Assembly (NCBI RefSeq): GCF_000787855.1 | Contig: NZ_BBPQ01000012.1 | Location: forward strand, 1-64,000 | Direction of reading: 5' to 3' | From: Streptacidiphilus anmyonensis | Lineage (GTDB): Bacteria > Actinomycetota > Actinomycetes > Streptomycetales > Streptomycetaceae | DNA length: 64,000 nt | Part shown: in pieces, positions 9,682 to 60,378 of the stretch | Layout of the letters: the number at the start of each line of letters is the position of its first letter | Numbering within the stretch: the stretch's first letter is position 1 | Program-made: the position numbers and the translations under genes | The notes under the pieces: generated by a model | The model's input: the letters and a program-made list of their open reading frames with translations, nothing else | Databases searched by the model: none | Told to the model about the DNA's origin: nothing

Positions 9682-9830
9682 CAGCGACTCTCCCAGGTCT
9701 TCGGCCGTTGGACCGGTCGGTGCGGTCCAGGGATCCACGTTCGGACGCCCCATCGGCATCGTGACAGAAAGCGGTGCGCTCCGGGGAGTGTTCCGGCGCG
9801 CGTCTTCCCAGGTCGTGTCGAGGAGTTGGC

Positions 9831-9875
9831 GAGATCCACGCGAGATCCACGTGCGGTCCACGTGCGATCCACCGC
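9831..9875. repeat. Short degenerate tandem repeat (GATCCACG unit)
   Basis: Four successive 10-13-nt units of the type GAGATCCACGTGC lie upstream of the tadA-associated gene. They are within the ~240-nt spacer (9682-9919) and could be regulator sites or slippage products. A further cggatc/gatccg pair follows at about 9894-9907. Confidence 0.55.
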
Positions 9876-9919
9876 GAGGAGACGGCCGGGCGACGGATCC
9901 TTGACCGATCCGTGTCCGA

Positions 9920-10150
9920 TCAGAAACGGAACGTGCGCATCCGGGCGGCCTGGCGCAGCCGCAACGCCTTGGTGCGTCTCGGCTGGACCCGTTCCCGCAG
10001 CGCCCGGGCCTCGGCGAGCTCGCGCAGGAAGACGGCGCGGCGGCGACGACGCTCGGCGGGATCCTCGGCGGGTCCGTCGGCGGGGGCCTCCACGGGAGGC
10101 TCCACTCGTTCGTCGACCGCGTGCTTCGCGGTCCGCTTCGACTTCGGCAT
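9920..10150 (-). CDS. Small basic hypothetical protein
   Basis: A 76-residue Lys/Arg-rich protein, with MPKSKRTAKHAVDERVEPP at the start and a C-terminal half made of a basic helix (RRRRRAVFLRELAEARALRE). The ATG at 10150 follows AGGGGTG by 8 nt. The open frame continues far upstream, antisense to upp, but this ATG is the first with a ribosome site. There are no domains I recognise. It lies divergently to upp with 135 nt between starts. Confidence 0.55.
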   Translation of the reverse strand: MPKSKRTAKHAVDERVEPPVEAPADGPAEDPAERRRRRAVFLRELAEARALRERVQPRRTKALRLRQAARMRTFRF

Positions 10151-10285
10151 TCGGCGGTCACCCCTGCGGGTCGCGTGTCCGTTCCCCCAACTCTCTCTCC
10201 CTCCTGCCCAGGCCACCAGTGCGCTGCACGGACGGGTGCTGCGAGGTTGGAGGTTGGACCGGTTTCGCTCGGTTAATGTCGTCCC

Positions 10286-10924
10286 ATGCGGATTCATGTC
10301 CTGGACCACCCCCTGGTCGCCCACAAGCTGACCACCCTGCGTGACGAGCGCACCGACTCCCCCACCTTCCGTCGCCTGACGGACGAGCTGGTGACGCTCC
10401 TGGCCTACGAGGCCACCCGGGACGTGCGGACCGAGCAGGTGGAGATCACCACCCCGGTCGCGGTCACCACGGGCGTCAAGCTCAGCTACCCGCGCCCGCT
10501 GGTGGTGCCGATCCTGCGCGCCGGTCTCGGCATGCTCGACGGCATGACCCGGCTGCTGCCGACCGCCGAGGTCGGCTTCCTCGGCATGGTCCGCAACGAG
10601 CAGACCCTGGAGGCGTCCACCTACGCCACCCGGATGCCGGAGGACCTCTCGGGCCGTCAGGTGTACGTGCTCGACCCGATGCTCGCCACCGGCGGCACGC
10701 TGGTCGCGGCGATCCGCCTGCTGATCGAGCGCGGCGCGGCCGACGTCACCGCGATCTGCCTGCTGGCCGCGCCGGAGGGCGTCGCCGTGCTGGAGAAGGA
10801 GCTGGCCGGGATGCCGGTCACGATCGTCACCGCGGCGGTGGACGACCACCTGAACGAGCACGGCTACATCGTCCCGGGCCTCGGCGACGCGGGCGACCGC
10901 CTCTACGGCACCGCCGGGGACTGA
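10286..10924 (+). CDS. upp: Uracil phosphoribosyltransferase
   Basis: A 212-residue UPRTase that makes UMP from uracil and PRPP (pyrimidine salvage). The PRPP-binding loop is [17 protein letters not shown] (residues ~130-146). The uracil-binding C-terminus includes [13 protein letters not shown] (~193-205). [15 protein letters not shown] is the conserved N-terminal core. Size and all motifs are normal. It is a single-gene unit followed by a tandem repeat and a terminator. Confidence 0.97.
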
Positions 10925-44297: not shown

Positions 44298-44702
44298 TCA
44301 GACAGAGATGATCTCGACGCCCTGCTCCAAGCCCTTGAAGTCCCCGGCGTTGCGGGTGAAGAGCGGGAGCCCGTGCGCGGAGGCGGTGGCAGCGATCAAC
44401 AGATCCATGCGACGGGGGCGGGGGTTTCGATTCGCCTTGACGGTGAGTGCGACCAGCGTTCCGAACCGGCGGGCGGCTTCCCGGTCGAAAGGGATGGCCG
44501 CGAATTCCGCCTCGACGTCGGCCAGGCGTTGCGCGCGCGCCATCATCTCCGCCGGGTCCCTGGTCATCGCCACGCCCTGAGTCAGCTCCGCCAGGACGAT
44601 CGAGGAGACGGCCGCTTCCACGGGGAGAAGCCCCGAATCGATCAGCGGCAGATCGATGACGACGCACGTGTCCAGCAGTCCGCGTGGCCGCCTCCCGGTC
44701 AT
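44298..44702 (-). CDS. VapC-type PIN-domain toxin
   Basis: A 134-residue ribonuclease-like protein from ATG 44702, overlapping the antitoxin stop by 4 nt. The acidic PIN residues appear in order: LLDTCVVIDL (Asp), VLAELTQGV (Glu), RRMDLLIAATA (Asp), TRNAGDFKGLE (Asp). Full length for VapC. It should cut RNA when free of its antitoxin. Confidence 0.92.
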   Translation of the reverse strand: MTGRRPRGLLDTCVVIDLPLIDSGLLPVEAAVSSIVLAELTQGVAMTRDPAEMMARAQRLADVEAEFAAIPFDREAARRFGTLVALTVKANRNPRPRRMDLLIAATASAHGLPLFTRNAGDFKGLEQGVEIISV

Positions 44703-44974
44703 GCGCGATCCCACGGGTTGCCGTCGTCGACGCGGTCCTCGGAACCGAAGAACGCGTCTCCCTCGGCTTGCATCTGAGCGGCGTCGATCTGAGGTGCGTG
44801 TCGCCACTTCCGCTGCAGTTCGTCGACCGGGACGAAACGTCGCCTGTTTCCAAGTGGGCGAACTTCGGCGATTTCAGTGCCGTTTCGGGTGATGTGGTAG
44901 GTCTCACCGGCTTCGACATCATCGAGCACAGCCTTGGAGCGTGCGGCGAGCTCCCGCTGGGTGATGGTCTTCAT
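44699..44974 (-). CDS. Phd/YefM-family antitoxin (VapB-type partner)
   Basis: A 91-residue protein. KTITQRELAARSKAVLDDVE followed by YHITRNGTEIAEVRPL is the Phd/YefM DNA-binding fold. The C-terminal ~35 residues (RFVPVDELQRKW) should wrap the toxin. ATG 44974 is followed by the expected start of the family. Coupled to the toxin gene. Confidence 0.92.
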   Translation of the reverse strand: MKTITQRELAARSKAVLDDVEAGETYHITRNGTEIAEVRPLGNRRRFVPVDELQRKWRHAPQIDAAQMQAEGDAFFGSEDRVDDGNPWDRA

Positions 44975-44986
44975 GGAACCAGCGTA

Positions 44987-45009
44987 TAGCGCTGTAATGC
45001 ATTGCGCTA
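44987..45009. promoter_or_regulatory. Dyad upstream of the toxin-antitoxin pair
   Basis: TAGCGC-N11-GCGCTA with an inner AATGCATT palindrome, 12 nt before the antitoxin start on the minus strand. Phd/YefM proteins usually repress their own operon at such dyads. Confidence 0.6.
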
Positions 45010-45145
45010 CGGAGTGATGGTTTCGCGACACGGAGTGCCGCCGATGACCATCCCGCTCCGCCGATCCTGGGCTGCACCGATTGCCTCCCGGAGGCCGCGC
45101 ATTCGCGGATCTTGGTGGCGGCGTCGGTCGGCATCCGGGTGGTGA

Positions 45146-45652
45146 GGTGTCGGCTCCGCCGCCCTCGTTCAGAGCGAGGACTTCCAGCGGGGCCTGACCC
45201 CGTCCGGTGCGACCGTCGCACTGACTGGACGTCAGGGGTTGTCCGCATGCTCGGGCGAGGAGACGATGCACGACCTGACCAAGGGCAAGGCCACTGCTTA
45301 CGCATCAGTGACCTGGACCTTCGACACGGACGGTCTTCTGATCGAGTCGGCCGCGAGCGCTCCTGCCGGCAGCGCGGCGGCCACCTGGGAGAAGCAGCTT
45401 GTCGCGCTCGTCCAGGAGTGCCAGGACGAGCCTGTCGGCCACTGGCACTACGGCGCGGCCCACACACTGACCCTCACCGGCGGCACCGGGCGCTGGTACC
45501 CGTCCTACAACGGCGACGGCAGCGCCACCGGCGGCGTCGCGGTCCTGCGCAGCGGCACCAGGGTCGCCATCGTCGAGCTCACCGGCCGGCCCACCGACGA
45601 CCCGGCCTACGTCAAGGGCATCGCCACCGCGGCACTGAACCGCCTCGCCTGA
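45146..45652 (+). pseudogene. 5'-truncated extracytoplasmic sensor-type domain
   Basis: About 168 codons open after a TGA at 45143, with no good start (first TTG at 45239). The peptide (SEDFQRGLTPSGATVALTG, SACSGEETMHDL, CQDEPVGHWHYG) looks like the exported C-terminal half of an actinobacterial lipoprotein or sensor domain, with two Cys that could pair. No signal peptide or membrane segment remains. It ends at the TGA within a sequence that resembles the tRNA-Ser downstream flank. Most likely a leftover from a deletion. Confidence 0.65.
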
Positions 45653-49118: not shown

Positions 49119-49854
49119 GTGGCGTCGTTGACCAACATCGCCCGGCACGCCTCGCATGCGCGTACCGCGAGCATCGAGGTTGGGCTCGTCGGTATGTGCG
49201 AACGGGTGGAGGCACTCGGCGGCTCACTGGGTGCGGGGACCGGAGCCGCGCGGCGGCTGGCACGTGTCGGCCCGCATTCCCTTCTCCGCCGGGGAGGCCG
49301 GGGGACGATCAGGGTCCGGCTGGCGGACGACCAGGCGATGAGCCGCAGCGGGCTGCGGCTCATCCTGGAGGACCAGGACGACATCATGGTTGCCGGGGAG
49401 GCCGCGGAAGGCGCCGAAGCCGTGGAGTTGGACCGCCGGCTGCGGCCGGACGTCTGCCTCGTCCACATCCGGTTGCCCCGCCCGGACGGCATCGAGGTGA
49501 CCCGCGCCCTGGCCGGGCCAGGCGTTCTTGACCCGTTGCGCGTGGTCATCGTCACCACCTTCGACCTCGACGAGTACGTCTACGACGGCCGCGCGCAGGG
49601 GCTGTCGGCTTCGTCTTCACCATCACACTGCGGCTACGGCGGGCCTGGCCCCGACGCGCGCCGCGACCCTGTCGGGGCCCGCGCAGCCGCTCTCGCTGCG
49701 GGAGTTGGAGGTCGTCCAGGCGATTGCCCGCGGCCGGAGCCGGCTCGAGGGTTCCTTCGCGCCCAGGAGCGGACCGGGGCTCCGCTCTGGTTGCCGGGCG
49801 CACCTGGTCCAGGGGGTTGAGATGTCCTCCGGCCGCATCACGATCCTGGGCTGA
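49119..49854 (+). pseudogene. Broken two-component system (kinase end fused to frameshifted NarL-type regulator)
   Basis: First ~50 codons match the end of a NarL-type histidine kinase (TNIARHASHARTASIEV jumping to GMCERVEALGGSLGAGTG, so the ATP-binding core is deleted). Then a response-regulator receiver (VRLADDQAMSRSGLRLILE, PDVCLVHIRLPRPDGIEVTR, VVIVTTFDLDEYVYD) in which the phospho-Asp position of the DLRMP motif reads HIRLP. Near 49605 the frame shifts to another frame carrying LSLRELEVVQAIARGRS of the LuxR HTH, then decays. Confidence 0.75.
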
Positions 49855-50048
49855 TGCCGGTCGACCGCCGCGCCGGTCGACGGTTGGCGATCCGGGCCGA
49901 GCTGGACGCTTTATGTCATGGCCGGTCTTGTCCAGCCTGCAGATCTTTTCTCTCCCCGCGGCCTGCGGAAGTATTCATGTTGTCGGAGCCGCGAGGAACG
50001 AAAGAACTCGGAAAGCGGCGATGCCAACGAGGGTCATCGAGGAGAGCC

Positions 50049-50231
50049 ATGAATCGGCAGTACGTGAGCAAGAGCACTTCGGTCGTCTTGATGCTGGCGA
50101 TCTGCGCGACTTTCCTCGGTGTCATTCTTGCGCAAGCTTGGACCGGCGGCCAAGGGGCCGTCGGAAACCGAGCCTTCGCCGTGTCGGCCAGCCAGCCGGT
50201 CACGCCTTCCGACCTCACCTGGGGAAACTGA
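50049..50231 (+). CDS. Small membrane-anchored or exported peptide at the head of the RiPP-like cluster
   Basis: 60 residues, ATG 50049 with GAGGAGAG just upstream. Short basic start (MNRQYVSKS), one hydrophobic helix (~11-30, TSVVLMLAICATFLGVILAQ), then a polar tail ending TPSDLTWGN. It lies 31 nt before the first precursor-like peptide. No relation to the two paralogous peptides is visible. It might be a separate precursor, a sensor/immunity peptide or a chaperone of the export step; I cannot decide. Confidence 0.65.
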   Translation: MNRQYVSKSTSVVLMLAICATFLGVILAQAWTGGQGAVGNRAFAVSASQPVTPSDLTWGN

Positions 50232-50262
50232 GGCGACGATAAGTCGCGAAGGGGTCAGCTAA

Positions 50263-50418
50263 ATGGAGAAGAACAGCCTTCCCGAGATCGGCCCTGCTGT
50301 CGAGAACTCAGTGGGAGACGCCGGCGGCGCCGAAATCTCGTTCGCGATGTGGGAGGTGTTCGAGCCGACGATCGAGGAGAGCATCCTCGCGAGCGGCCAC
50401 CACATCGCCGGGATCTGA
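50263..50418 (+). CDS. Putative RiPP precursor peptide 1
   Basis: 51 residues, too short for routine gene finding. ATG 50263 follows AAGGGG by ~9 nt. Acidic N-terminal half (MEKNSLPEIGPAVENS) and a C-terminal block FEPTIEESILASGHHIAGI. That block is nearly identical to the end of the next peptide, while the N-termini differ. No cysteine is present. By analogy with RiPPs the C-terminal part would carry the modified core. No product is known to me. Confidence 0.75.
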   Translation: MEKNSLPEIGPAVENSVGDAGGAEISFAMWEVFEPTIEESILASGHHIAGI

Positions 50419-50446
50419 CGGGACTCCGGAATCCGCATCAAGTCTT

Positions 50447-50468
50447 CCCCCGGCGAACCGACCGGGGG
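50447..50468 (+). promoter_or_regulatory. 7-bp hairpin between the two precursor genes
   Basis: CCCCCGG (50447-50453) pairs with CCGGGGG (50462-50468), followed by ACTCACGAAAAA. It could stabilise the 3' end of the first precursor transcript or limit read-through. Confidence 0.45.
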
Positions 50469-50495
50469 ACTCACGAAAAACCACAGGAGGAAATG

Positions 50496-50642
50496 ATGGG
50501 CGAGAACCTGACCAACGTGAACGGCGACGTCGAGGCCGTCGAGGAGACCGTCTCCGAGCCGTTCACGGTCGGCGACAGCTTCGAGCCGACCGTCGAGGAG
50601 AGCATCCTCGCCAGCGGCCTGCACATCCAGGGCGGCTGGTAA
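50496..50642 (+). CDS. Putative RiPP precursor peptide 2
   Basis: 48 residues. ATG 50496 is preferred over the adjacent in-frame ATG 50493 because AGGAGG ends 5 nt before it. Acidic leader-like part (GENLTNVNGDVEAVEETVSE) followed by FEPTVEESILASGLHIQGGW. Compared with peptide 1 the block differs at I/V, H/L, A/Q and the terminal I versus GW. It lies 113 nt before the first kinase gene, separated by two hairpins. Confidence 0.78.
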   Translation: MGENLTNVNGDVEAVEETVSEPFTVGDSFEPTVEESILASGLHIQGGW

Positions 50643-50652
50643 CCAACGACTG

Positions 50653-50732
50653 ACGGGCTTCGCCCGTCGCCGTTCCTTCGGAGCGCGACCCGCGGCCACA
50701 GGGATGTACCCGGTCGGCCGCGGGTCGCCTCC
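50653..50732 (+). terminator. Double stem-loop between precursor genes and modification operon
   Basis: First GACGGGC-TTC-GCCCGTC (50653-50669), then a 13-bp perfect stem (50686-50698 with 50716-50728), extended by GGAG/CTCC across a 1-nt bulge. Such elements often let precursor mRNA greatly exceed the mRNA for the enzymes. No T-run is present, so partial termination or transcript stabilisation is more likely than full stop. Confidence 0.75.
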
Positions 50733-50755
50733 GTTCGTATCCGAAGGGCAGAACT

Positions 50756-51631
50756 ATGTCCAGGCACATCGTCCGACTCGATTTCTGGGGCGTCGGCGTT
50801 CGGGTCGATCTCCCCACAGCGGTGGATCAGGAGCATTTCAGCTTCCAGTTCAGAAACCACCTCGTCGAGGAACCCGCTGAAGGGCCAGATCAGCAGAGCG
50901 CTCAGGATCTGACCGTCGTCTTCCGATCGGACGGGGACGTCCCTTGGTGTCGAGCGGTGCTCGATCCGGGGATTCGAAAGGATATCTGGATCAAGACGGG
51001 CGGCGGAGAGGCCCAGCTCTATGATTCATGGCTGAGGGGCTCCTCGCGACCCTCTCCCCTCCCCCCGCTCGGTTTTCCTCCGCTGGCCGGAGAATTCCGG
51101 GCGGTGCACGCCGCGTGCGCTCTTCCCGCCGACGGTGGTCCGGGGATCGTGGTGACGGGTGAGAGCGGAGCGGGAAAGAGCTCGATCCTGCTCTACCTGC
51201 TCGAATCCGGACACCTTTACGGAGGAGACGACCTGGTGCCGGTATCGCGCTCCGGGATCCGACCCTATCTCCGGACCATGAATATCCGCACCGCTACATT
51301 GCGCAGCCTGCCCGCCGGCCTTCAGGAGAGGATCCGAGAGCACGGCCGACCGATGGAGACGCCTTCGGGGGTGACCTATCTGGTCCAGCCCGCCGATCTC
51401 GGTTACCCCTCGGCCGCTGCGGAGGTCGTGACGGAGGTGCATCGGGTCCATCTGACGGCCGCCGACGCGTTCTCGGCGGAGGTCCAGGCGGACGGTCGTC
51501 TCGCGATCGGGTGGGACGCCCCGCGCCATCGGGCCGAGGCGATGAGCGCGGTGGGACAGTACGTTCGATCGGCGAAGCCGTTCCGATTCGCGCCTGACGG
51601 GATCAGCGCGAAGGCAGCGGTCGCCGCATGA
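50756..51631 (+). CDS. HPr kinase-like (HprK-related) protein 1
   Basis: 291 residues. An N-terminal domain (~1-110, RLDFWGVGVRVDL) and a kinase domain with P-loop GESGAGKS (~135-142), followed by the HprK-type acidic motif YGGDDLVPV (~155). The family uses a Walker-A fold to phosphorylate serine; relatives in lasso-peptide clusters phosphorylate the peptide. No HPr or PTS gene is nearby. It overlaps the second kinase gene by 4 nt. Likely substrate is the Ser in the EESILASG block (inference). Confidence 0.82.
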   Translation: MSRHIVRLDFWGVGVRVDLPTAVDQEHFSFQFRNHLVEEPAEGPDQQSAQDLTVVFRSDGDVPWCRAVLDPGIRKDIWIKTGGGEAQLYDSWLRGSSRPSPLPPLGFPPLAGEFRAVHAACALPADGGPGIVVTGESGAGKSSILLYLLESGHLYGGDDLVPVSRSGIRPYLRTMNIRTATLRSLPAGLQERIREHGRPMETPSGVTYLVQPADLGYPSAAAEVVTEVHRVHLTAADAFSAEVQADGRLAIGWDAPRHRAEAMSAVGQYVRSAKPFRFAPDGISAKAAVAA

Positions 51632-52473
51632 GCACACAGCGCCTGGACTTCGATTTCTTTGGCATCTCCACCGTGCTGGAGCTCGATGAGGAGGACGTCG
51701 CCACAGCCTCCTGGTTCTTTCGCCGACACCTGCTGGCGCAACCCCTCCCCGCCCACAAGATGCCGAAGGTGCGGGTGGCGTGCGGCCGCGGGTTCTTCGA
51801 GTCGCTGCTCGCGCACTCCACCGACGAGAAGTCGATGAGGCTGACAGACAGTCAGGGCACCCGCGAACTCACGTTCACCTCGTGGTCGCACGCTCCGAGC
51901 TTCATGCCGCCCTTCGCCAGCCACGAGTTCCTGGACCGCTACGCGATCATGCACGGTGCCGCTCTGGCAACGCCTGAGGGCCGTGGCCTGGTGCTGGTGG
52001 GGCGCAACTACATCGGCAAGACCGCACTGACGTTGGAGTTGCTCAAGCGCGGCTTCCACCTCGTCAGCGACAGCTGCGTCGTCATCGACTACGGGAGCCC
52101 GGTGGGGCCGCGACTACGTCGTTACGAGACGCCCTTCGGATTCCGACGCAACACCTTGCGGCGGTGGAAGCAGCAACTGGCAGGGGTGGAGCGGCGAAGC
52201 CAGATCTCGGAAGTGACCGGCGAGGTCGTCCTCGCGCACGCGCACGACGTCCTGCCGGACCTGAAGACCGCAGACCGGGTTCCGCTCGATCTGATGGTGT
52301 CCCTGACCGCGGAGGACGCGGACGAGGCGCCCTCGCAGGTGTTGCGTGTCTATCCGGAAGCTGCGGGACCTCGCGTGATGGAGACGGTCAATCTGGCGCG
52401 TCGCCACCGTCTGGGCGGGGTCGACCAGATGAAGGTCCGGGACTCGGCGGACAGGATCACGCAGCTGCTCTGA
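51628..52473 (+). CDS. HPr kinase-like (HprK-related) protein 2, divergent P-loop
   Basis: 281 residues, a distant paralogue of the preceding protein: RLDFDFFGISTVLEL resembles its start. P-loop GRNYIGKTALTLELL (~125-139) keeps GxxxxGKT, but the acidic motif reads HLVSDSCVVID instead of GDD, so one of the two acidic residues is lacking. It may be a regulatory or substrate-binding partner rather than an active kinase. Coupled by a 4-nt overlap. Confidence 0.78.
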   Translation: MSTQRLDFDFFGISTVLELDEEDVATASWFFRRHLLAQPLPAHKMPKVRVACGRGFFESLLAHSTDEKSMRLTDSQGTRELTFTSWSHAPSFMPPFASHEFLDRYAIMHGAALATPEGRGLVLVGRNYIGKTALTLELLKRGFHLVSDSCVVIDYGSPVGPRLRRYETPFGFRRNTLRRWKQQLAGVERRSQISEVTGEVVLAHAHDVLPDLKTADRVPLDLMVSLTAEDADEAPSQVLRVYPEAAGPRVMETVNLARRHRLGGVDQMKVRDSADRITQLL

Positions 52474-52524
52474 CGATGCCCCGGCTCCGTGCGATCGCCC
52501 GAGAGCCGGCCCGATGTAGGACAG

Positions 52525-53826
52525 ATGAGAGAGACGACAGTGCAGATTCTCGAGGCAGGTCAGCGCCGGGCGCTGAGGGTAAGGGACTTCCGACGACTGT
52601 GGGCCGGTGCTTCGGTCAGTCTGCTGGGCACGCAGGTGACTGTGCTCGCCCTGCCCACCGTGTTCGTGTTGTCCATCCATGGCGGACCGTTGGAGGTCTC
52701 GCTGGTCAATGCGATCCAGTACGCCGCCATGCTGCTGGGGCTCGGCTGGGCGGGCCGTGTGGCGGACCGGTTGGACCCGAGGACCATCATGGTCGGCTGT
52801 GACTCGGTCCGAGCCACTGCCCTGGTGGCCATCCTCGTGATGAGCACGCTCGCCCGGCCCCAGGGCTGGGCGGTCCTGCTGGTGGCTGCGGTCATCGGCG
52901 CCGCCAGTGCGTTCAACGACACCGCGGTGGCTGTTGTGGTCCCTCGGGCACTCGTCGCGGACCTGCGCATCTACGGCAACACGCTCTATGCCCAGAGCCA
53001 GTACGTGGCCTTCTCCCTGGGGCCGCCCCTCGCCGGCCTGTTGGTCGGTCTGTTCGGGGGAGGCCGTGCGGTCGCCATCGACGCGGGCAGCTACGTCGTT
53101 TCCGCCTTCTTCGCCAGCCGACTCAGCCGTGCGGTGACCGGGGGCGAGGGACGGAGCAACTCCGCGCCCGCGGGCTCGTCCCGGGCTTCGGCCGCCCGCA
53201 TGGTGTGGGGGACGAAGGCGCTGCGGAGCGTCGCCCTGGCGTCGGCCACGGGCAACCTCGGCCACCAGATGGTGCAGGGCGTCTACCTGCTGTTCCTCTA
53301 CCGGTCCTACGGACTGTCCCCGGAGCTGGTGGGTCTGGGGTTCGGCGTCGGCGGGGTGGCCGGGATCTTCGGAGCGCGCTCAGCTGGTCCGCTCGCCCGG
53401 CGACTGGGCAACGGTTGGGCGCTCATGCTCGCGACGGTGTCGGGCGGCGGATCGTGGTTGCTGCTGTTCGTTCCGGGCGTCCCTCACGTCGTGGTGGTCG
53501 GCCTGGCAGCGACTCTGATCAGCTTCTGCATGCCGCTCTTCGGCGTCGTGCAGGCCACCCTGCGACAGGCGGTCACGCCGGCGGAGCGGCAGGGAGCGGC
53601 AGCCGCGGGGGTCGGCTTCATCAGCCTGTGCACCGTGCCGGTCGGATTCCTCCTCGGTGGGTTGCTCGCGCAGGGCGCGGGACTCACCACCACCCTGATC
53701 ACCGGGGCGGGCGTGGCGATGCTCTCGGGTCTGTGGTGTCTGCCGCTCGTCCGCGAATCCTCGACGACGACGCCGAAGACGCACGGGGTGTCCGACCTGC
53801 CCGTGCCGGCGCCGGCGATCGACTGA
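52525..53826 (+). CDS. MFS transporter (putative peptide exporter)
   Basis: 433 residues, about 12 membrane helices. FRRLWAGASVSLLGTQVTVLALP opening and AGRVADRLDPRTIMVGCDSV (motif A-like) are typical of the MFS_3/enterobactin-exporter group. It lies between the second kinase and the radical SAM gene, 51 nt and 34 nt from them. An export or self-protection role fits its place. Confidence 0.88.
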   Translation: MRETTVQILEAGQRRALRVRDFRRLWAGASVSLLGTQVTVLALPTVFVLSIHGGPLEVSLVNAIQYAAMLLGLGWAGRVADRLDPRTIMVGCDSVRATALVAILVMSTLARPQGWAVLLVAAVIGAASAFNDTAVAVVVPRALVADLRIYGNTLYAQSQYVAFSLGPPLAGLLVGLFGGGRAVAIDAGSYVVSAFFASRLSRAVTGGEGRSNSAPAGSSRASAARMVWGTKALRSVALASATGNLGHQMVQGVYLLFLYRSYGLSPELVGLGFGVGGVAGIFGARSAGPLARRLGNGWALMLATVSGGGSWLLLFVPGVPHVVVVGLAATLISFCMPLFGVVQATLRQAVTPAERQGAAAAGVGFISLCTVPVGFLLGGLLAQGAGLTTTLITGAGVAMLSGLWCLPLVRESSTTTPKTHGVSDLPVPAPAID

Positions 53827-53860: not shown

Positions 53861-55723
53861 ATGTCCAAGCAGATATTCGAACTGACTCCGGTCCGGCGCT
53901 CCGGAAAAGGCCGGACAAGCCCTCTACAGCTCGCCTTCCACCGGGTCGCGGTCGTCTCCTTGCCGTTCTACACGCAGTACACGGCCTGTCTGCCGGCCAT
54001 GCTGCTGCGGGAGATCACCAAGGCTCACGGCGCCGAGGCCGACCTGTTCGCGGGCCACATCGAGTTCGCGCTCGAGTTCATCCGCAGCCAGCGTGATCAC
54101 GACGTCTACAAGGACCTGACGCACGAGGCGTCCTTCGCCGACCTCTGTCTGCTGCCCCTGCTCCGCGGGTGGGACGAGACGGACATGCGTGCCGGTCTGG
54201 ACGCCTACGCCGACCGGATCTCCGCGCCGGACCGGGAGTTCAGGGACCGTCTCGGCGCGGCCTTCGACTCGTATCTGGACGCGCTCGTGGAGCGACTGCA
54301 CGGATACGACGTCATCGCGTTGACGGCGACCCACTTTCAGCTCGTCCCGTCCCTTCTGCTGGCCGAGCGGCTCAAGTCACGCTACGGATCGACCGGCCCG
54401 AAGGTCGTGCTGGGCGGGTACCTGGCGTCGATCGAGAACGCGCGACTTCTTCTGGAACAACACCAGGACGTCGACGTCATCGTCTACGGGGAGGGCGAGG
54501 ACGTCTGGCCGCGGGTCATGCGGGCGCTGGAGCAGGGCCGACGGAAGGTGGTGCGGGGTTCCGCAGCGTCGTTCAGGAACTTCTTCCCCAAGCACGACGA
54601 CCTCCTGCGTCAGGTGGCTCGCGTGCCGTGGCTGAAGGGGCGCTTCGCCGCGACCCTGGAGATCAGCCGCGGCTGCTACTGGGACAAGTGCGACTTCTGC
54701 AACTTCAACGCGGCCTACGACGCGGTCTTCAAGGCGCATGCCGCCGAGCGCACCCTCGCGGAGATGGACCGTCTGGAGCGGGAGTTCGGGCAACGCAAGT
54801 TCCAGTTCACCGACACCGCGATCCCACGTACCCTCACCCGGCATCTCATCCAGCAGGACCTCCGTCGGGATTGGGACGTCTTCCTCGAGATCCGCCCGGA
54901 CTTCGACTACTACGAGTACGAGGCGCTGCAACGACTGGGGACGATCCGCGTCCAGATCGGCATCGAGTCCATCGTCGAGAGCCACCTGGACAGGATGAAC
55001 AAGAACTCCACGGTCGGCGACAACGTCCGCGCGCTGCTCATCTGCCAGCAGTTGGACATCGCGCCGACCTGGGGACTGCTGATCAACCATCCGAACGAGA
55101 CCGTCGAGGAGCTCGACGCGACCCTTGAGCGGATGCGCGCCTGGCGCCATCTTCCCCCACCGAAGTACGCGAGCTTCTGCGAGCTGCGCGTCGGAAGCGC
55201 CCTGGACCAGCAGCGTGACGAGATCCTCTCGGCTCCCGTGTATCCCTGCCCGGCCTACGCGCTGTTGCTTCCGCTTCGGCCGGAGTGCGCCGACTTCGTG
55301 CCGGTGGAGTCCTCCGACCAGCCGGCGGATCCGGAACGCGTATCGAGGCTGAAGCTGATCCAGCGCGAGATCGACGCCTGGCAGGCGGACTACGACGCCG
55401 GATCACGCTTGCTCGGGAGGCTGACGGAGAGCGGCCTGGTCGAGATCTCGGACCGCCGTCGCCCGGGACACGAGCAGATCGACCTGCTGAACGAGCACGC
55501 GAGCGCTGTCATTCGCACGATGGCCAACGGTGCTCTGACCGTCGAGGAGATCACCGCGCTGGTCTCCTGCTCCACGAGTGCGGCGCAGCAGCTCTGCTCG
55601 GAGCTGGTGGACGCCGGATACGCCTTCTGGTCGGTTCAGCGGCGCTCGGCCCGACCGGTCCTGGAGGGCCTCGTCGGGGGGTTGATCGCCGCAGCCGCGC
55701 CGCTCCCGGAAAGGGTGTCCTGA
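53861..55723 (+). CDS. B12-binding-type radical SAM enzyme of the RiPP-like cluster
   Basis: 620 residues from ATG 53861 (AGGAG 8 nt upstream). N-terminal cobalamin-binding-like Rossmann domain (~140-235, KVVLGGYLASIENARLL, VDVIVYGEGED). Radical SAM core from ~265 with SRGCYWDKCDFCNF: cysteines 272, 277 and 280, i.e. CX4CX2C. Later QIGIESIVESHLDRMNK and LLINHPNETVEEL are SAM-barrel strands. A C-terminal winged-helix-like segment (~545-605, GALTVEEITALVSCSTSAAQQL) could bind the precursor. Likely C-methylation or another radical change of the peptide. Confidence 0.85.
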   Translation: MSKQIFELTPVRRSGKGRTSPLQLAFHRVAVVSLPFYTQYTACLPAMLLREITKAHGAEADLFAGHIEFALEFIRSQRDHDVYKDLTHEASFADLCLLPLLRGWDETDMRAGLDAYADRISAPDREFRDRLGAAFDSYLDALVERLHGYDVIALTATHFQLVPSLLLAERLKSRYGSTGPKVVLGGYLASIENARLLLEQHQDVDVIVYGEGEDVWPRVMRALEQGRRKVVRGSAASFRNFFPKHDDLLRQVARVPWLKGRFAATLEISRGCYWDKCDFCNFNAAYDAVFKAHAAERTLAEMDRLEREFGQRKFQFTDTAIPRTLTRHLIQQDLRRDWDVFLEIRPDFDYYEYEALQRLGTIRVQIGIESIVESHLDRMNKNSTVGDNVRALLICQQLDIAPTWGLLINHPNETVEELDATLERMRAWRHLPPPKYASFCELRVGSALDQQRDEILSAPVYPCPAYALLLPLRPECADFVPVESSDQPADPERVSRLKLIQREIDAWQADYDAGSRLLGRLTESGLVEISDRRRPGHEQIDLLNEHASAVIRTMANGALTVEEITALVSCSTSAAQQLCSELVDAGYAFWSVQRRSARPVLEGLVGGLIAAAAPLPERVS

Positions 55724-57645
55724 TGTCCGCACTCTCAGCTGCGCCCGCGGGGGTTCAGGAGCTGCTGGAAGCGCTGGCGGCGAACCGGGAGCTGCCCGGT
55801 GACGGCATCTCGGTCTCGTGCGACCGACTGGCCTATCTGGAGCGGGCGGCCGGGGCGCAGCTTCCCGATCTGATGCTGCAGAGCCTTTCCGACGGCGAGA
55901 GCCGACGCTGGCCGCCGGGTGCGCACCTGCCTGCCGGTGCCAGACTCGGTAAGCCGACTCTGTCACCTCAGGGTCGCTATGTCGCTTTCCCGGTGACCCT
56001 CGACGGCAACGAGACCGGGGAACTGCGTGTGCTGGACCTTTCCACCGAGAGGCTGCTGGACGGCGCGCTGCCCGAAGTCCGCCATCCCGCGGTGGTCTGG
56101 GCGGGCGACGAGCGAAGCCTCTGGTGCACGCGGAGCGCGTCTCCTCACGGGGTGCCTGATCAGGTGGTGCGGTACCGGCTCGCCGGCGGCGAGGGAGGAG
56201 GAGAGGCCGGAGCCGTCGAGGAGGTCTTCCGCATCCAGGCCGGGGAAGGCGTCGTCTCGCAGGTGAGCCTCTCGGACGACCAGCGCCATCTCGCGATCCA
56301 CGTCACGGTCATGCCACGGGGGACCGATCTCTACGTCGTCGACACCGCGACCCACGCGGTCGTCAGCTCACTGGTCGGCGGACGTGGGCAACTTCGTGCG
56401 CATCTCGCCGGCGGGTACGTCTGGGCCACCAGCAATCGCGCGCATCCCGCCGGGGAGCTTCTGCGCCTGCGGCTCGACGACTCGCGCGCACCCGCTTGGG
56501 AGACGGTCTTCCGGCCGGACAGCGCGAGTGCCCGTCTGGTGGCCATGGCTGCCGGACCGAGGTCCCTCTTCGTTCACTACCGCGATACACGGCAGGGAGA
56601 TCTGCTGGCCGAGGTGGACCTGGACAACGGACGCGTTTCACCGTTGGACTCCCCCGACGGAGTGGTCGCGGACCTGGTGGCCGTCCCCGACGCGAATCTC
56701 CTGGCGTACTCCGAGTTCACCGCCGACTTCGCCGACGGAGGCAGCTACGCCGTCGCCTCGTCACAGCCCAGCGGCGCCAGGCGCGTCCTGGTGCACAACC
56801 GCCTGCCGCACACGGTCCGGCTCAGGACGGACAGCTACGTCAGCGCGGACGGCGGCGCACGGCGCTTGTTCGTCGTGGAGGAGCAGGGAAGGGATCCGGA
56901 CCGTGCTGGACCGGTCTTCGTCACCGCCTTTCCCGGTCTGCCCACACTTGCGACGAGCCCGCTGTACCGGTGGCTGATTCCGGTGCTCTGCGCCCGTGGA
57001 GTGCGCGTCGTGCTCCCCGTGATCGCCGGCCCGCTGTCGCCCCGGACGAGGTCCGCCCGCAGACCGATCGAGGATTTGGAGCTGGCCTGCCGGGAGCTGG
57101 TGGACAGGGGCTGGGTCGGCCCGGAAGGCATGGTCGCCGACGGCTGGAGCGAGGGGGGTCTCTACGTCGCCATGGCCATGAGCCGCAGCCCCGAGCTCTT
57201 CGCGGGGGTGGTTCTGCGCAACGCGCTGTTGGATCTCACCGTCACGGATCCAGGCCCGGTCGGCAAGGCCCGCTCGGCCCTCTACGGGCAGCCGGACAAC
57301 CCGGGTGAACTCCCATGGCTCGAATCCCACTCGCCCATCCACCGGATCAGGCCGGGTCTCGCGTATCCGCCTGTCCTGGCAGCGGTGAACTCGCGTGACA
57401 TGCGGGTGTCGCCCGACCAGTCCCGACGCTTCGTCGAGGCCCTGCACGACCGGGCGGCACCGCCGGCCTACGGTCGCCATCAACTCATCGAGTCACCCGG
57501 TGGACACTTCGGCGCGGTCACCAAGTCGGATCAGATCGCCGAGGTCGCCGCACTGTCGGCGTTCGTCCTGGGGTGCTTCTCCACGCCCCAGGGCTCCAGG
57601 ATCTCTGACTTCCACAAGCCCGGAAAGGATCGCACGCATGAGTGA
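55723..57645 (+). CDS. Prolyl-oligopeptidase-like S9 peptidase of the cluster
   Basis: 640 residues, start overlapping the radical SAM stop by one base (TGATG). N-terminal beta-propeller ~75-400 (TLSPQGRYVAFPVTLDGNE, QVSLSDDQRHLAIHV). Hydrolase domain with Ser476 in GWSEGG, Asp559 in NSRDMRVSPDQS, His595 in SPGGHFGA. The oxyanion area (AFPGLPTLATSPLYRW) differs from digestive S9 enzymes. Both precursor peptides contain Pro at FEP-T, a natural POP cleavage site, which would release a 16- or 17-residue core (inference). Confidence 0.87.
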   Translation: MSALSAAPAGVQELLEALAANRELPGDGISVSCDRLAYLERAAGAQLPDLMLQSLSDGESRRWPPGAHLPAGARLGKPTLSPQGRYVAFPVTLDGNETGELRVLDLSTERLLDGALPEVRHPAVVWAGDERSLWCTRSASPHGVPDQVVRYRLAGGEGGGEAGAVEEVFRIQAGEGVVSQVSLSDDQRHLAIHVTVMPRGTDLYVVDTATHAVVSSLVGGRGQLRAHLAGGYVWATSNRAHPAGELLRLRLDDSRAPAWETVFRPDSASARLVAMAAGPRSLFVHYRDTRQGDLLAEVDLDNGRVSPLDSPDGVVADLVAVPDANLLAYSEFTADFADGGSYAVASSQPSGARRVLVHNRLPHTVRLRTDSYVSADGGARRLFVVEEQGRDPDRAGPVFVTAFPGLPTLATSPLYRWLIPVLCARGVRVVLPVIAGPLSPRTRSARRPIEDLELACRELVDRGWVGPEGMVADGWSEGGLYVAMAMSRSPELFAGVVLRNALLDLTVTDPGPVGKARSALYGQPDNPGELPWLESHSPIHRIRPGLAYPPVLAAVNSRDMRVSPDQSRRFVEALHDRAAPPAYGRHQLIESPGGHFGAVTKSDQIAEVAALSAFVLGCFSTPQGSRISDFHKPGKDRTHE

Positions 57646-58309
57646 AACGCCCACCATGCTCAGGCCCAGGGACTGGGCTCGCGTCATGGCCGACTTCGAG
57701 GCCGCCGGACCACGGCCCGTGCTGGTCATCGACGACCTGTTCTCGGTGGCCGGCCTGAAGCTTCTGCACGACGAGTTGTCCGACGACACACCGTGGGAGG
57801 AGTTCGCCACCTCTCGTCGGCGGAACAGGCCGCAGAGCCCTGGCCTGATCAGGGCCGGTGCCGAGCTGAGCGAGGCTCTCCACCCCATGCTCGGCGCGAT
57901 GAAGATCATCAGCCACTGGGTGATCGCCGCCGGCCGAGGCACAGGAATTCGGATGCATGCCGACAACTCCACCTACAGCATGAACATCTGGCTGAGCCCA
58001 GGCCCCCCGCGCCCGACTGCAGCCACCGACGGGATGCTCTTCTACGACGTGCTCCGGCCCGAGCGGATGCCCTATTCGAGGTTCTCCTCCCACGACGCGT
58101 GCGAGGAATTCGTCCGTGAACAGAACGGGATCGTCGCGCATCGCATCCCCTACCGGTGCAACCGGGCGGTGCTCTTCGACGCCCGCGTGATGCACCGCAG
58201 CGAACCGGTCTCGTTCCCGGGCGAAGCCGTCAGCGACAGCCGGATCAACCTCACCTACTCCTGGGACCACCTGGACTGGGCCCGTGCCCGCACGGAGATG
58301 TCGGCCTGA
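57638..58309 (+). CDS. 2-oxoglutarate/Fe(II)-type oxygenase
   Basis: 223 residues from ATG 57638, overlapping the peptidase end by 8 nt. The iron triad can be read as H and D in IRMHADNSTYSMNIWLSP and H in VLFDARVMHRSEPVSF, with Arg shortly after in SRINLTYSWD as the 2OG anchor. The fold matches small prolyl-hydroxylase-like enzymes. Acts presumably on the cluster peptide. Confidence 0.78.
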   Translation: MSETPTMLRPRDWARVMADFEAAGPRPVLVIDDLFSVAGLKLLHDELSDDTPWEEFATSRRRNRPQSPGLIRAGAELSEALHPMLGAMKIISHWVIAAGRGTGIRMHADNSTYSMNIWLSPGPPRPTAATDGMLFYDVLRPERMPYSRFSSHDACEEFVREQNGIVAHRIPYRCNRAVLFDARVMHRSEPVSFPGEAVSDSRINLTYSWDHLDWARARTEMSA

Positions 58310-58327: not shown

Positions 58328-59344
58328 GTGTTGACCGATAGCGGGACCCCGGGGTGTCCGGCCGCCGCCGTGAGGTTGCCGGCCACGACGGACGCGGCCC
58401 GGCTCGTCGAAGAGCTTCAGCTGCTCACTGCCGAACGCTGGCGCCAGCAGCGCGTGTTCGGAGCGTCTCTCAGCAGCAGTCCGACGGACGCGGACTGGCG
58501 GATCCTCCCTCTCCGCAGCCCCGATGGCAGTCTGGAGCGGACGGATCCCGGCGGGCCCGGGACCGATGACTTCGCCGACACCACCTGGATGGCCCGGGTC
58601 CCGTATATGCGCTCTCTGGTCCGGGCGATTCCTGTGCCCGTCCGGGCGGTGCGACTGATGGCGTTGGGCCCGGCCGCGGCCAGTCCGACGCACAGCGACC
58701 TCAAGTACGGTCCCCGATGGGGGCTGGCCCGCATCCATATTCCCGTCGTCACCAATCCTGGCGCCCTTCTGGACATCCAGGGAAACGAGTACTGTTGGCA
58801 ACCTGGTGAAATCTGGTTCGGGGATTTCAGTCGGCCGCACCACATCCGGAACAGTGGACCGGAGACCAGGGTTCACATGGTGGTGGACTGCGTCGTGGCG
58901 CCCGAACTGACCCGCTACTTCCCGCCCGCATGGCAGGCCTACCTCGGTTCCGAGGACGTACTGAACAGCCGGCCCGAACAGCCGAGGCTCCGGCCGGGCG
59001 GCGGCGAACAGGTACGGCACCGCTTTCACGTGCCGACCCGGTTCCTGGACTGGCGTGAGCCGGCCGAGATGTCAATCGACACAGCCCGGCCCCAGACGCT
59101 CGTGAGCGTGGTCGAGCGGCGTGAATCGGTGCAGCTGGTCCTGCCCGACCAACGAAAGTTCGGCCTGATTCACGTCGCCGACCGGGAATTCCGATTCGCG
59201 GGATGGACGCAGGAACGCACCATCGTCCTGCCCGGACCCGACGTGAGCGCTGACTCCGTGGTGCTGCGAGCCAGGACGGGTCGCCTCCTGTACGAGGTTT
59301 CGGTCACGGCGGGATTCGACCGCAGCCCGATTCCGGTCGCCTAG
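58328..59344 (+). CDS. Aspartyl/asparaginyl beta-hydroxylase-like oxygenase
   Basis: 338 residues from GTG 58328 with AAGGAG 7 nt upstream. The jelly-roll core ~115-190 carries PTHSDLKYGPRWGLARIHIPV (His first ligand, Arg for 2OG), WQPGEIWFGDF, HHIRNSG (second His) and RVHMVVDC. The C-terminal ~120 residues have no recognised motif. In this family the substrate is often an Asp, Asn or His side chain; the conserved His-Ile in the peptides is a possible target (inference). Confidence 0.82.
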   Translation: MLTDSGTPGCPAAAVRLPATTDAARLVEELQLLTAERWRQQRVFGASLSSSPTDADWRILPLRSPDGSLERTDPGGPGTDDFADTTWMARVPYMRSLVRAIPVPVRAVRLMALGPAAASPTHSDLKYGPRWGLARIHIPVVTNPGALLDIQGNEYCWQPGEIWFGDFSRPHHIRNSGPETRVHMVVDCVVAPELTRYFPPAWQAYLGSEDVLNSRPEQPRLRPGGGEQVRHRFHVPTRFLDWREPAEMSIDTARPQTLVSVVERRESVQLVLPDQRKFGLIHVADREFRFAGWTQERTIVLPGPDVSADSVVLRARTGRLLYEVSVTAGFDRSPIPVA

Positions 59345-60339
59345 GAGACGGACGCGCGCGTGAACCAGCCTCTTTCCGTCGCGTTGCAACCGGCCTCGAA
59401 CCGGCTCTTCGCATCGAGAGCTTCCATCAGCTTGGCCACGGTCCTGCGGGTCGTGCGCGGTGACACCCCGAGCCTGTTGGCGATGGCTTCGTCGGTCAGG
59501 CCGGCGCGCATGAGCCGTAGGGTCCCCAACTCCTGTGTCGACAGGCCATGTTCATCACGCTTGCCCTGGTCGAGCAGGGTGGAACCGGTGTCCCAGACGA
59601 GCTCGAACAGGGCGGTGAGCGCCGCTATGGTTCCCCTGCCGCGGACGATGAGCGCCCCGTCCGCGGCAGCGGCGGGGTTCGCGGGAAGGACGGCGAGCCG
59701 ACCGTCCACGATGATCATCCGCAGCGGGAGCACGGGCACGGTGCGCACCTCCGCACCCTGCTCGCAGAGCCAGTGGACGTGGTCCACGGTCGGCGGGTCG
59801 TTGCGGATGCTGTCCAGATACACCGTGCGGACGGTGACGCCTCGCTCGAAGAGGTCGGCGTTGGGCTGCCGACTCGCGTGCAGATCCTCGGGGGTGTGTG
59901 CGCCACCGGGAGCGAAGGTCATGACCTGCTCGCGTGCCTCCGTGCCGATTTCGGCCAGGCGTGCACGAATCTCGGAGATTCCGACGACCTCCTCGGCGGC
60001 AAGGGCGCCGTCCTCGAGGTCGAGTTCGGCGCACTGGGCCGCGAGAAGCGCCGCTGCGGCACGGGATGCTTCAAGACGCTGTTGCTGGGCTGCCAACTCG
60101 GCCTGCTGCTTGGCTATGAGAGCATCGAGGCCGACGCTGGCGCGTACGGCTCGGAAGCCCGACGGAGTAGCCGAGTTCCGCACCAGTGCGAGAGTGCTGA
60201 GATGGCCCAGAACGTCCTTAAGACCGGGCTCCCCGAGGCCGATTCTGGCCGCGAGCTCGGGCAGCGTCTCTTTCGGGTGCACCAGCATTTCCCGATAGAC
60301 GCGTTCCGACGTCGCGTCGAGTCCCAATAGTTCGAGCAA
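59341..60339 (-). CDS. TrmB/LuxR-type transcriptional regulator
   Basis: 332 residues from TTG 60339, chosen because GGGGGA lies 5 nt upstream; the frame could extend to TTG 60378 without a site. N-terminal winged helix (TSERVYREMLVHPKETLPEL), coiled coil ~75-110, a PLD-like effector domain (YLDSIRNDPPTVDHVHWLCE, MIIVDGRLAVLP), and a C-terminal LuxR HTH (TQELGTLRLMRAGLTDEAIA, VSPRTTRRTVAKLMEAL). Same class as many actinomycete cluster regulators. Convergent with the oxygenase gene, 4-nt overlap. Confidence 0.88.
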   Translation of the reverse strand: MLELLGLDATSERVYREMLVHPKETLPELAARIGLGEPGLKDVLGHLSTLALVRNSATPSGFRAVRASVGLDALIAKQQAELAAQQQRLEASRAAAALLAAQCAELDLEDGALAAEEVVGISEIRARLAEIGTEAREQVMTFAPGGAHTPEDLHASRQPNADLFERGVTVRTVYLDSIRNDPPTVDHVHWLCEQGAEVRTVPVLPLRMIIVDGRLAVLPANPAAAADGALIVRGRGTIAALTALFELVWDTGSTLLDQGKRDEHGLSTQELGTLRLMRAGLTDEAIANRLGVSPRTTRRTVAKLMEALDAKSRFEAGCNATERGWFTRASVS

Positions 60340-60378
60340 GCCGATCCCCCGGTGTCGGTCGTCCTGGCAACTGGGCAA

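Follow-up and report, generated by a model that had tools for sequence, protein, structure and literature searches.

Small precursor peptides and a pair of HprK-like proteins in a putative RiPP-type cluster of Streptacidiphilus anmyonensis and its relatives

The 64,000-nucleotide stretch of Streptacidiphilus anmyonensis DNA analysed here (contig NZ_BBPQ01000012.1, positions 1 to 64,000; hereafter the window) contains two very short genes, P1 and P2, that most likely encode two precursor peptides of one RiPP-type cluster. Combined with the heteropair of HprK-like proteins encoded downstream of them (K1 and K2), this precursor family appears to represent an undescribed form of RiPP cluster. The cluster type is rare, occurs in Streptomyces-like soil bacteria, and is recognizable by a 13-position motif (PTxEExIxASGxH) together with the K1/K2 pair; its precursor genes comprise only 39-51 codons, some of them below the usual gene-calling length, which hides this rare cluster type. 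The original prediction had linked a RiPP-like peptide pair to HprK-like genes and had proposed a search for the motif peptide in their vicinity. Such a peptide is found beside or within the HprK-like gene clusters of all six distinct relatives, and the proposed link is thereby upheld.

Two paralogous putative precursor genes

Both ORFs are present where they had been placed, with P1 at 50263-50418 (+ strand; 51 aa) and P2 at 50496-50642 (+ strand), including the end of P2 at 50642. Each has homologues, and P2 is additionally marked by its start context. The invariant columns of the precursor alignment define the predicted recognition blocks, which are FEPTIEESILASG in P1 (50359-50397, + strand) and FEPTVEESILASG in P2 (50580-50618, + strand). 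P2 may start at ATG 50493 (49 aa) or at ATG 50496 (48 aa), of which the latter has the better spacing from a strong upstream AGGAGG. Good ribosome sites had been described for both genes; this holds for P2, and the site of P1 is fair, consisting of a modest purine run (aaggggtc).

The proposed paralogy of the two peptides, with a conserved C-terminus, is confirmed by homologous blocks in both a genome search and a shuffle test. P2 alone as the query retrieved P1 from their own 9.39-Mb genome (E 3.9e-4, 64% identity over 25 aa), and the best ungapped 17-residue BLOSUM62 score between P1 and P2 was 70, whereas 500 shuffled versions of P2 averaged 18.4 and never exceeded 47. The other small ORFs of the window (361 collected, those overlapping P1 or P2 excluded) scored no higher than 28 in the same comparison, and a six-frame scan of the 64 kb for the motif expression gave two occurrences only, those in the P1 and P2 ORFs. 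Since homologues exist in other genomes, a chance origin of the likeness is very unlikely. Codon differences among five sister precursors (10 pairs, one identical) are nearly all at third positions and nearly all synonymous, with 0-5 synonymous and 0-1 non-synonymous differences per pair over the last 33 codons, a pattern that speaks for translation under selection.

Distribution among related genomes

The relatives' loci were retrieved via K1, and information on the peptides played no part in those searches. As a single query against 297 genomes of the same family (its own included), K1 matched three other genomes at 32-37% identity. A K1 profile built from the own genome and these three relatives was then scanned against GTDB species genomes and yielded five named loci (Streptomyces achromogenes NRRL B-2120, S. 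eurythermus JCM 4206, S. acidipaludis PLK6-54, Streptomyces sp. HB132, and Kitasatospora sp. MAA4), two of which, judged by their contigs, coincide with two of the three earlier relatives (S. acidipaludis, L012 = L009; Kitasatospora, L014 = L007), making six distinct relatives in all. In the five Streptomyces-type relatives the motif ORF is flanked on either side by a B12 radical SAM gene, and in Kitasatospora it lies just before K1 (L007, 9451-9567). Used as plain tblastn queries (E 1e-3), P1 and P2 matched the precursors of the five Streptomyces-type relatives out of the six; the Kitasatospora precursor gave no match at this threshold and was identified by motif and position.

Surveys of 394 Streptomycetaceae genomes with the K1 profile and with a precursor profile matched five genomes each, four of them common to both. 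The extra precursor-profile match (G335; E 0.04, inside a 755-aa frame) is probably due to chance, and the extra genome picked out by the K1 profile (G167; E 2.5e-12) encodes a K2-like protein that is degenerate, its P-loop being lost, with no motif peptide detected in that genome. Because the profiles were built from loci that they then find, the informative part of these surveys is the absence of matches elsewhere rather than their presence. A small precursor gene is, as in RiPP clusters, co-conserved with modifying enzymes (6/6 relatives; the 394-genome surveys).

Among 14 genomes of the own genus, the peptide was found only in the window's own genome; two further genus-level searches, in Kitasatospora (1 of 70 genomes) and in the genus to which G048 belongs (1 of 35), added no new peptide-bearing genome; and no relative was found in the viral contigs and plasmids searched. 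A class-wide search of 394 genomes with the K1 profile at E 1e-10 returned the own genome only. Phylum-wide, a K1 search of 286 genomes at E 1e-5 matched 12 others, mostly with matches confined to the P-loop region; in the one of these that was inspected (G395, locus L051) the HprK-like gene lies beside a glycosyltransferase-like gene, and no motif peptide was seen among the small + strand ORFs listed nearby.

A conserved block followed by variable tails

The precursor alignment comprises seven rows, two from the window and five from relatives (L011 was omitted, being identical to L010). Besides Met1, every specified position of PTxEExIxASGxH (all but those marked x) is invariant over all seven. 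The tails that follow ASG vary, with HHIAGI in P1, LHIQGGW in P2, LHKQFVVD in five genomes, and GHTQGTCMSYGATAICF in Kitasatospora (6, 7, 8, and 17 residues, respectively). From the window alone, the peptides had been taken to show the opposite of the usual RiPP pattern, with a varying N-terminal part and a conserved C-terminus; the alignment of orthologues does not bear this out and instead reveals a conserved block and, behind it, a tail of variable sequence and length, which corresponds to the classical order of leader and then core. The sequence pattern is thus that of a RiPP precursor (a conserved recognition region and a variable core), in which the putative recognition block directly abuts an unusually short core and the N-terminus has diverged. 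The Kitasatospora precursor has only 11 residues (MHREVVVPTY plus I) before the invariant Pro if its GTG start is right, and no ATG lies upstream of that start in the same frame.

Neither P1 nor P2 nor any of the five Streptomyces-type cores has a Ser or Thr after ASG, so that three of the four core types lack a hydroxyl residue of this kind and, with it, the classical target of a kinase in the core. The Kitasatospora core contains two Cys and several hydroxyl residues, and the chemistry there may differ. The ASG sequence is loosely similar to the consensus of double-glycine leaders, but no C39 peptidase was noted among the scanned genes.

The HprK-like pair

K1 (50756-51631, + strand; PF07475 E 1.3e-5) is an HprK-like P-loop protein with paired Asp residues (GDD) and a predicted PEPCK/HprK fold, and K2 (51628-52473, + strand; PF07475 E 9.5e-7) is a second HprK-like protein in which the P-loop is kept and the second Asp is replaced (SDS). 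Both fall below curated HprK cut-offs, K1 with 25.2 of the 33.3 bits demanded for PF07475 and 26.4 of the 240 for TIGR00679, and K2 likewise under the Pfam and NCBIfam values. A profile of K1 compared with PDB entries matched HprK/P at E 1.6e-5, with the HprK Asp pair aligned to the DD of K1. The structural model of K1 (pLDDT 83.5) had HprK/P as its best Foldseek matches (E 5.7e-5), although the TM-scores of the top match are modest (query 0.29, target 0.47) and its rmsd is 8.2. Comparison by VIA gave Z 11.8 over 123 residues at 2.5 A for HprK/P and Z 13.8 over 244 residues at 3.8 A for PEPCK. The fold comparison covered PDB chains only, and families outside the result list may match as well. 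The K2 model is poor (pLDDT 66.3).

The paired Asp is kept in K1 of 7/7 clusters, and in all seven K2 keeps the GKT of the P-loop with D-S or D-Q in place of the pair. K1 has the P-loop, paired Asp, and predicted HprK/PEPCK fold that mark the HprK-like kinase superfamily; K2 lacks the paired Asp. In tblastn from the window, K1 and K2 were recovered in all six relatives at 29-34% and 31-36% identity, respectively. Among the modifying enzymes compared, these two are the only ones near the precursor in all seven clusters, and for this reason the pair probably binds or reads the conserved block, an assignment that follows from gene co-occurrence. In clusters that have a radical SAM enzyme, the block might be read by that enzyme instead.

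Accompanying genes

Gene order in the window is P1, P2, a set of predicted RNA hairpins, K1, K2, MFS transporter, radical SAM enzyme, S9 peptidase, a weakly supported 2OG-type oxygenase, an Asp/Asn hydroxylase-like protein, and, on the opposite strand, a regulator. The MFS protein (52489-53826, + strand; PF07690 E 9e-28) is a probable exporter. The B12-binding radical SAM enzyme (53861-55723, + strand) resembles C-methyltransferases, with TIGR03975 as its best family (E 9.6e-54). Compared with these RiPP C-methyltransferases, it aligns nearly full length (profile positions 1-595 of 606), yet its score of 182.9 lies under the curated cut-off of 281.85 bits. The S9 prolyl-oligopeptidase-like protein (55723-57645, + strand; PF00326 E 1.7e-19, PF02897 E 4e-16) is a candidate leader peptidase. 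It is followed by a possible 2OG-Fe(II) oxygenase (57638-58309, + strand), for which PF13640 gave only E 0.22 and an HxD with a distal H was noted by eye, by an aspartyl/asparaginyl beta-hydroxylase-like oxygenase (58328-59344, + strand; PF05118 E 1.8e-13), and by a TrmB/LuxR-like protein (59341-60378, - strand; PF00196 E 2.1e-6, PF01978 E 0.0015) that may regulate the cluster.

The Streptomyces-type order, taken from S. achromogenes, is PhyH-like oxygenase, radical SAM, precursor, radical SAM, K1, K2, ABC genes, S9, and DUF6445. The Kitasatospora order is precursor, K1, K2, ABC ATPase, and luciferase-like oxidoreductase (the last two at 11283-13070 of L007), and no TIGR03975 match was found in that genome at E 1e-20. 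By tblastn from the window, the radical SAM enzyme (39-41% identity) and the S9 peptidase (28-32%, C-terminal half) were matched in the five Streptomyces-type loci only, and no match to the MFS protein or to either oxygenase was obtained in the six relatives.

A proposed pathway and its alternatives

The reading favored here, with moderate confidence for the pathway as a whole, is that RiPP precursors are bound at the block by K1/K2 and modified by a kinase reaction, followed by tailoring of the core, removal of the leader, and export. The block [FY]xPTxEExIxASG would be the part recognized, acting as a minimal leader that borders the core and to which K1/K2 would bind; the divergent N-terminus would be mostly a spacer, and the cores would be the residues past ASG (HHIAGI and LHIQGGW). 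K1, with its paired Asp kept, would be the active ATP-dependent kinase, and K2, which no longer has the second Asp, would be its partner or a subunit with a regulatory role. HprK-like enzymes are reported to phosphorylate a precursor Ser in paeninodin-type lasso peptides and in linear polyphosphorylated peptides (LPP), and phosphorylation of the peptide is therefore the default reading. With no Ser or Thr past ASG, the target would lie within the block (Ser of ASG or Thr of PT) or be a hydroxyl that an oxygenase supplies, or else the reaction differs; the invariant Ser of ASG or an oxygenase-installed hydroxyl is the most likely choice. The radical SAM enzyme would C-methylate the core, the oxygenases would hydroxylate it (with the invariant His as the obvious candidate), the S9 peptidase would remove the leader at a site presumed here, and the MFS protein would export the product.

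A cut by the S9 enzyme after ASG would leave the block outside the product, whereas a cut after the invariant Pro (FEP|T) would place it inside, giving T[I/V]EESILASGxH... with S-G-x-H modified within. The latter is rather unlikely. It would account for the coincidence of an invariant Pro with a prolyl-oligopeptidase-like S9 protein in the window and in the five Streptomyces-type clusters, as well as for invariant Ser and His side chains that are unusual in a mere recognition helix. However, Kitasatospora keeps the Pro and no S9 gene was noticed nearby, S9 enzymes have other specificities too (that of the window is weakly similar to oligopeptidase B), and the core-like variation sits in the tails and not in the block. 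If the invariant S-G-x-H does stay in the product, the earlier suggestion that the conserved block is both recognition site and core would be partly right.

The role of the kinases can also be read differently. K1/K2 might phosphorylate the Ser of ASG as a switch that marks or blocks the cleavage site and so controls maturation, leaving modification of the core to the radical SAM enzyme and the oxygenases. The invariance of this Ser while three of four core types lack Ser/Thr fits such a switch, which is nonetheless decidedly improbable given that the Kitasatospora precursor adjoins only K1/K2 as candidate modifiers, plus a luciferase-like oxidoreductase; it is this arrangement that makes K1/K2 seem class-defining there. 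Least credible, and very improbable, is the notion that P1 and P2 stay unprocessed and regulate K1/K2, either as small signals or as tags for protein interaction: a short, strongly conserved C-terminal block would suit that role, but the RiPP-type radical SAM enzyme, peptidase and transporter, and the variable tails of 6 to 17 residues, would not. A bolder reading, also decidedly improbable, is that K1/K2 form an obligate kinase/pseudo-kinase pair founding a RiPP class of its own, which would read the precursor with no PqqD-type recognition domain and carry out a reaction on S-G-x-H that would be new for HprK relatives (e.g., a histidinoalanine bridge through Ser phosphorylation, elimination and His addition, or direct phosphorylation of His).

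Comparison with known systems

HprK-like kinases are already known in lasso peptides and in LPP. In LPP of Bacillota, no macrolactam cyclase takes part and an HprK-like kinase modifies the ribosomal precursor; this kinase is accompanied by a discrete RRE, by a peptidase of the signal-peptidase-like type and by an NTP transferase, the leader motif is YxxPxVLxHQxIxFETxxS, and the expressed example has a 45-residue core (PMC13381572). LPP and the window cluster have in common HprK-like proteins and a conserved recognition motif before a variable C-terminus. The window cluster differs from LPP in its two kinase-like proteins, in the block PTxEExIxASGxH at the core's edge, and in the additional radical SAM, S9, and oxygenase-like genes. 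Compared by eye, the LPP motif is absent from the aligned precursors, and general domain scans of 10 window and 9 relative ORFs revealed no discrete RRE gene, signal-peptidase-like peptidase, or NTP transferase.

In paeninodin-type lasso peptides, the HprK-like tailoring kinase PadeK phosphorylates the C-terminal Ser of the precursor before maturation (PMC9266682). Such a terminal Ser is lacking in P1, P2, and the Streptomyces-type precursors, whose last residue is Ile, Trp, or Asp. A lasso peptide was considered because of paeninodin; neither an asparagine-synthase-like cyclase nor a B2 peptidase was seen in the scanned ORFs (10 in the window, 9 in relatives). With HprK/P and PEPCK, K1 shares the P-loop, paired Asp, and predicted fold, its N-terminal part resembling PEPCK; in contrast to HprK/P systems, no HPr-like substrate is encoded among the scanned genes and K2 lacks the second Asp. 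In the open-licence literature, searched by titles and the beginnings of abstracts, no paper on this precursor family was found.

Should K1/K2 suffice to modify the Kitasatospora precursor, the result would be a minimal two-protein peptide-modifying system with its tag directly beside the core, which would be handy for engineering. It would also help to decide if kinases of the HprK-like type can be class-defining for RiPPs of Actinomycetota, in the way that they are for LPP in Bacillota.

Expression signals and neighbouring DNA

Strong RNA hairpins are predicted between P2 and K1 (50652-50733, + strand; fold z-score -5.5, 0 of 200 shuffles), and the gap between P1 and P2 folds no better than its shuffles (z -0.70). 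The stretch after the precursor was folded for L008, L010, L013, and L014 (L009 and L011 were left out): in L010 and L013 the precursor is closely followed by a stem of 16-17 bp (z -3.65 and -4.68), L008 is weaker (z -1.56), and the 37-nt stretch in Kitasatospora (L014) has no strong hairpin (z -0.74). Since the window hairpins have no T-run and an intrinsic-terminator scan lists none there, an attenuator role is at most likely; the predicted structures possibly act as an attenuator that favors precursor over enzyme. Within 49700-50800, no sigma-70 promoter-like site was found, and the sole terminator-like site (49891-49906) was no better than shuffles.

Directly upstream of P1, a 60-aa peptide is encoded at 50050-50231 (+ strand) that contains a signal/TM-like segment and ends in TPSDLTWGN. 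It has no convincing homologue, the matches in 3 of 100 other genomes (E 0.003-0.01) lying within long frames, and it may be a secreted signal that works together with the regulator. By eye, a comparable small ORF ending in NLNWDFAPAHNANLNWD lies near a regulator in the G167 locus (L024). The regulators of the two loci (59341-60378, - strand, in the window; 11270-12259 in L024) are 44% identical (E 2e-79), and both RiPP-like clusters carry HprK-like genes; in L024 the K2-like gene (9687-10298, - strand), with its decayed P-loop (GSPHSDREG), adjoins apparent thiazole/oxazole-type RiPP genes, as judged by eye. Elsewhere in the window, inspection by eye revealed an apparent decayed NarL-type response regulator at ~49300-49850 (+ strand), whose receiver and DNA-binding part (SLRELEVVQAIARG) lie in different frames, and PIN-domain toxin-like and Phd/VapB-like antitoxin ORFs at 44298-45271 (- strand) that are probably a VapBC-type pair.
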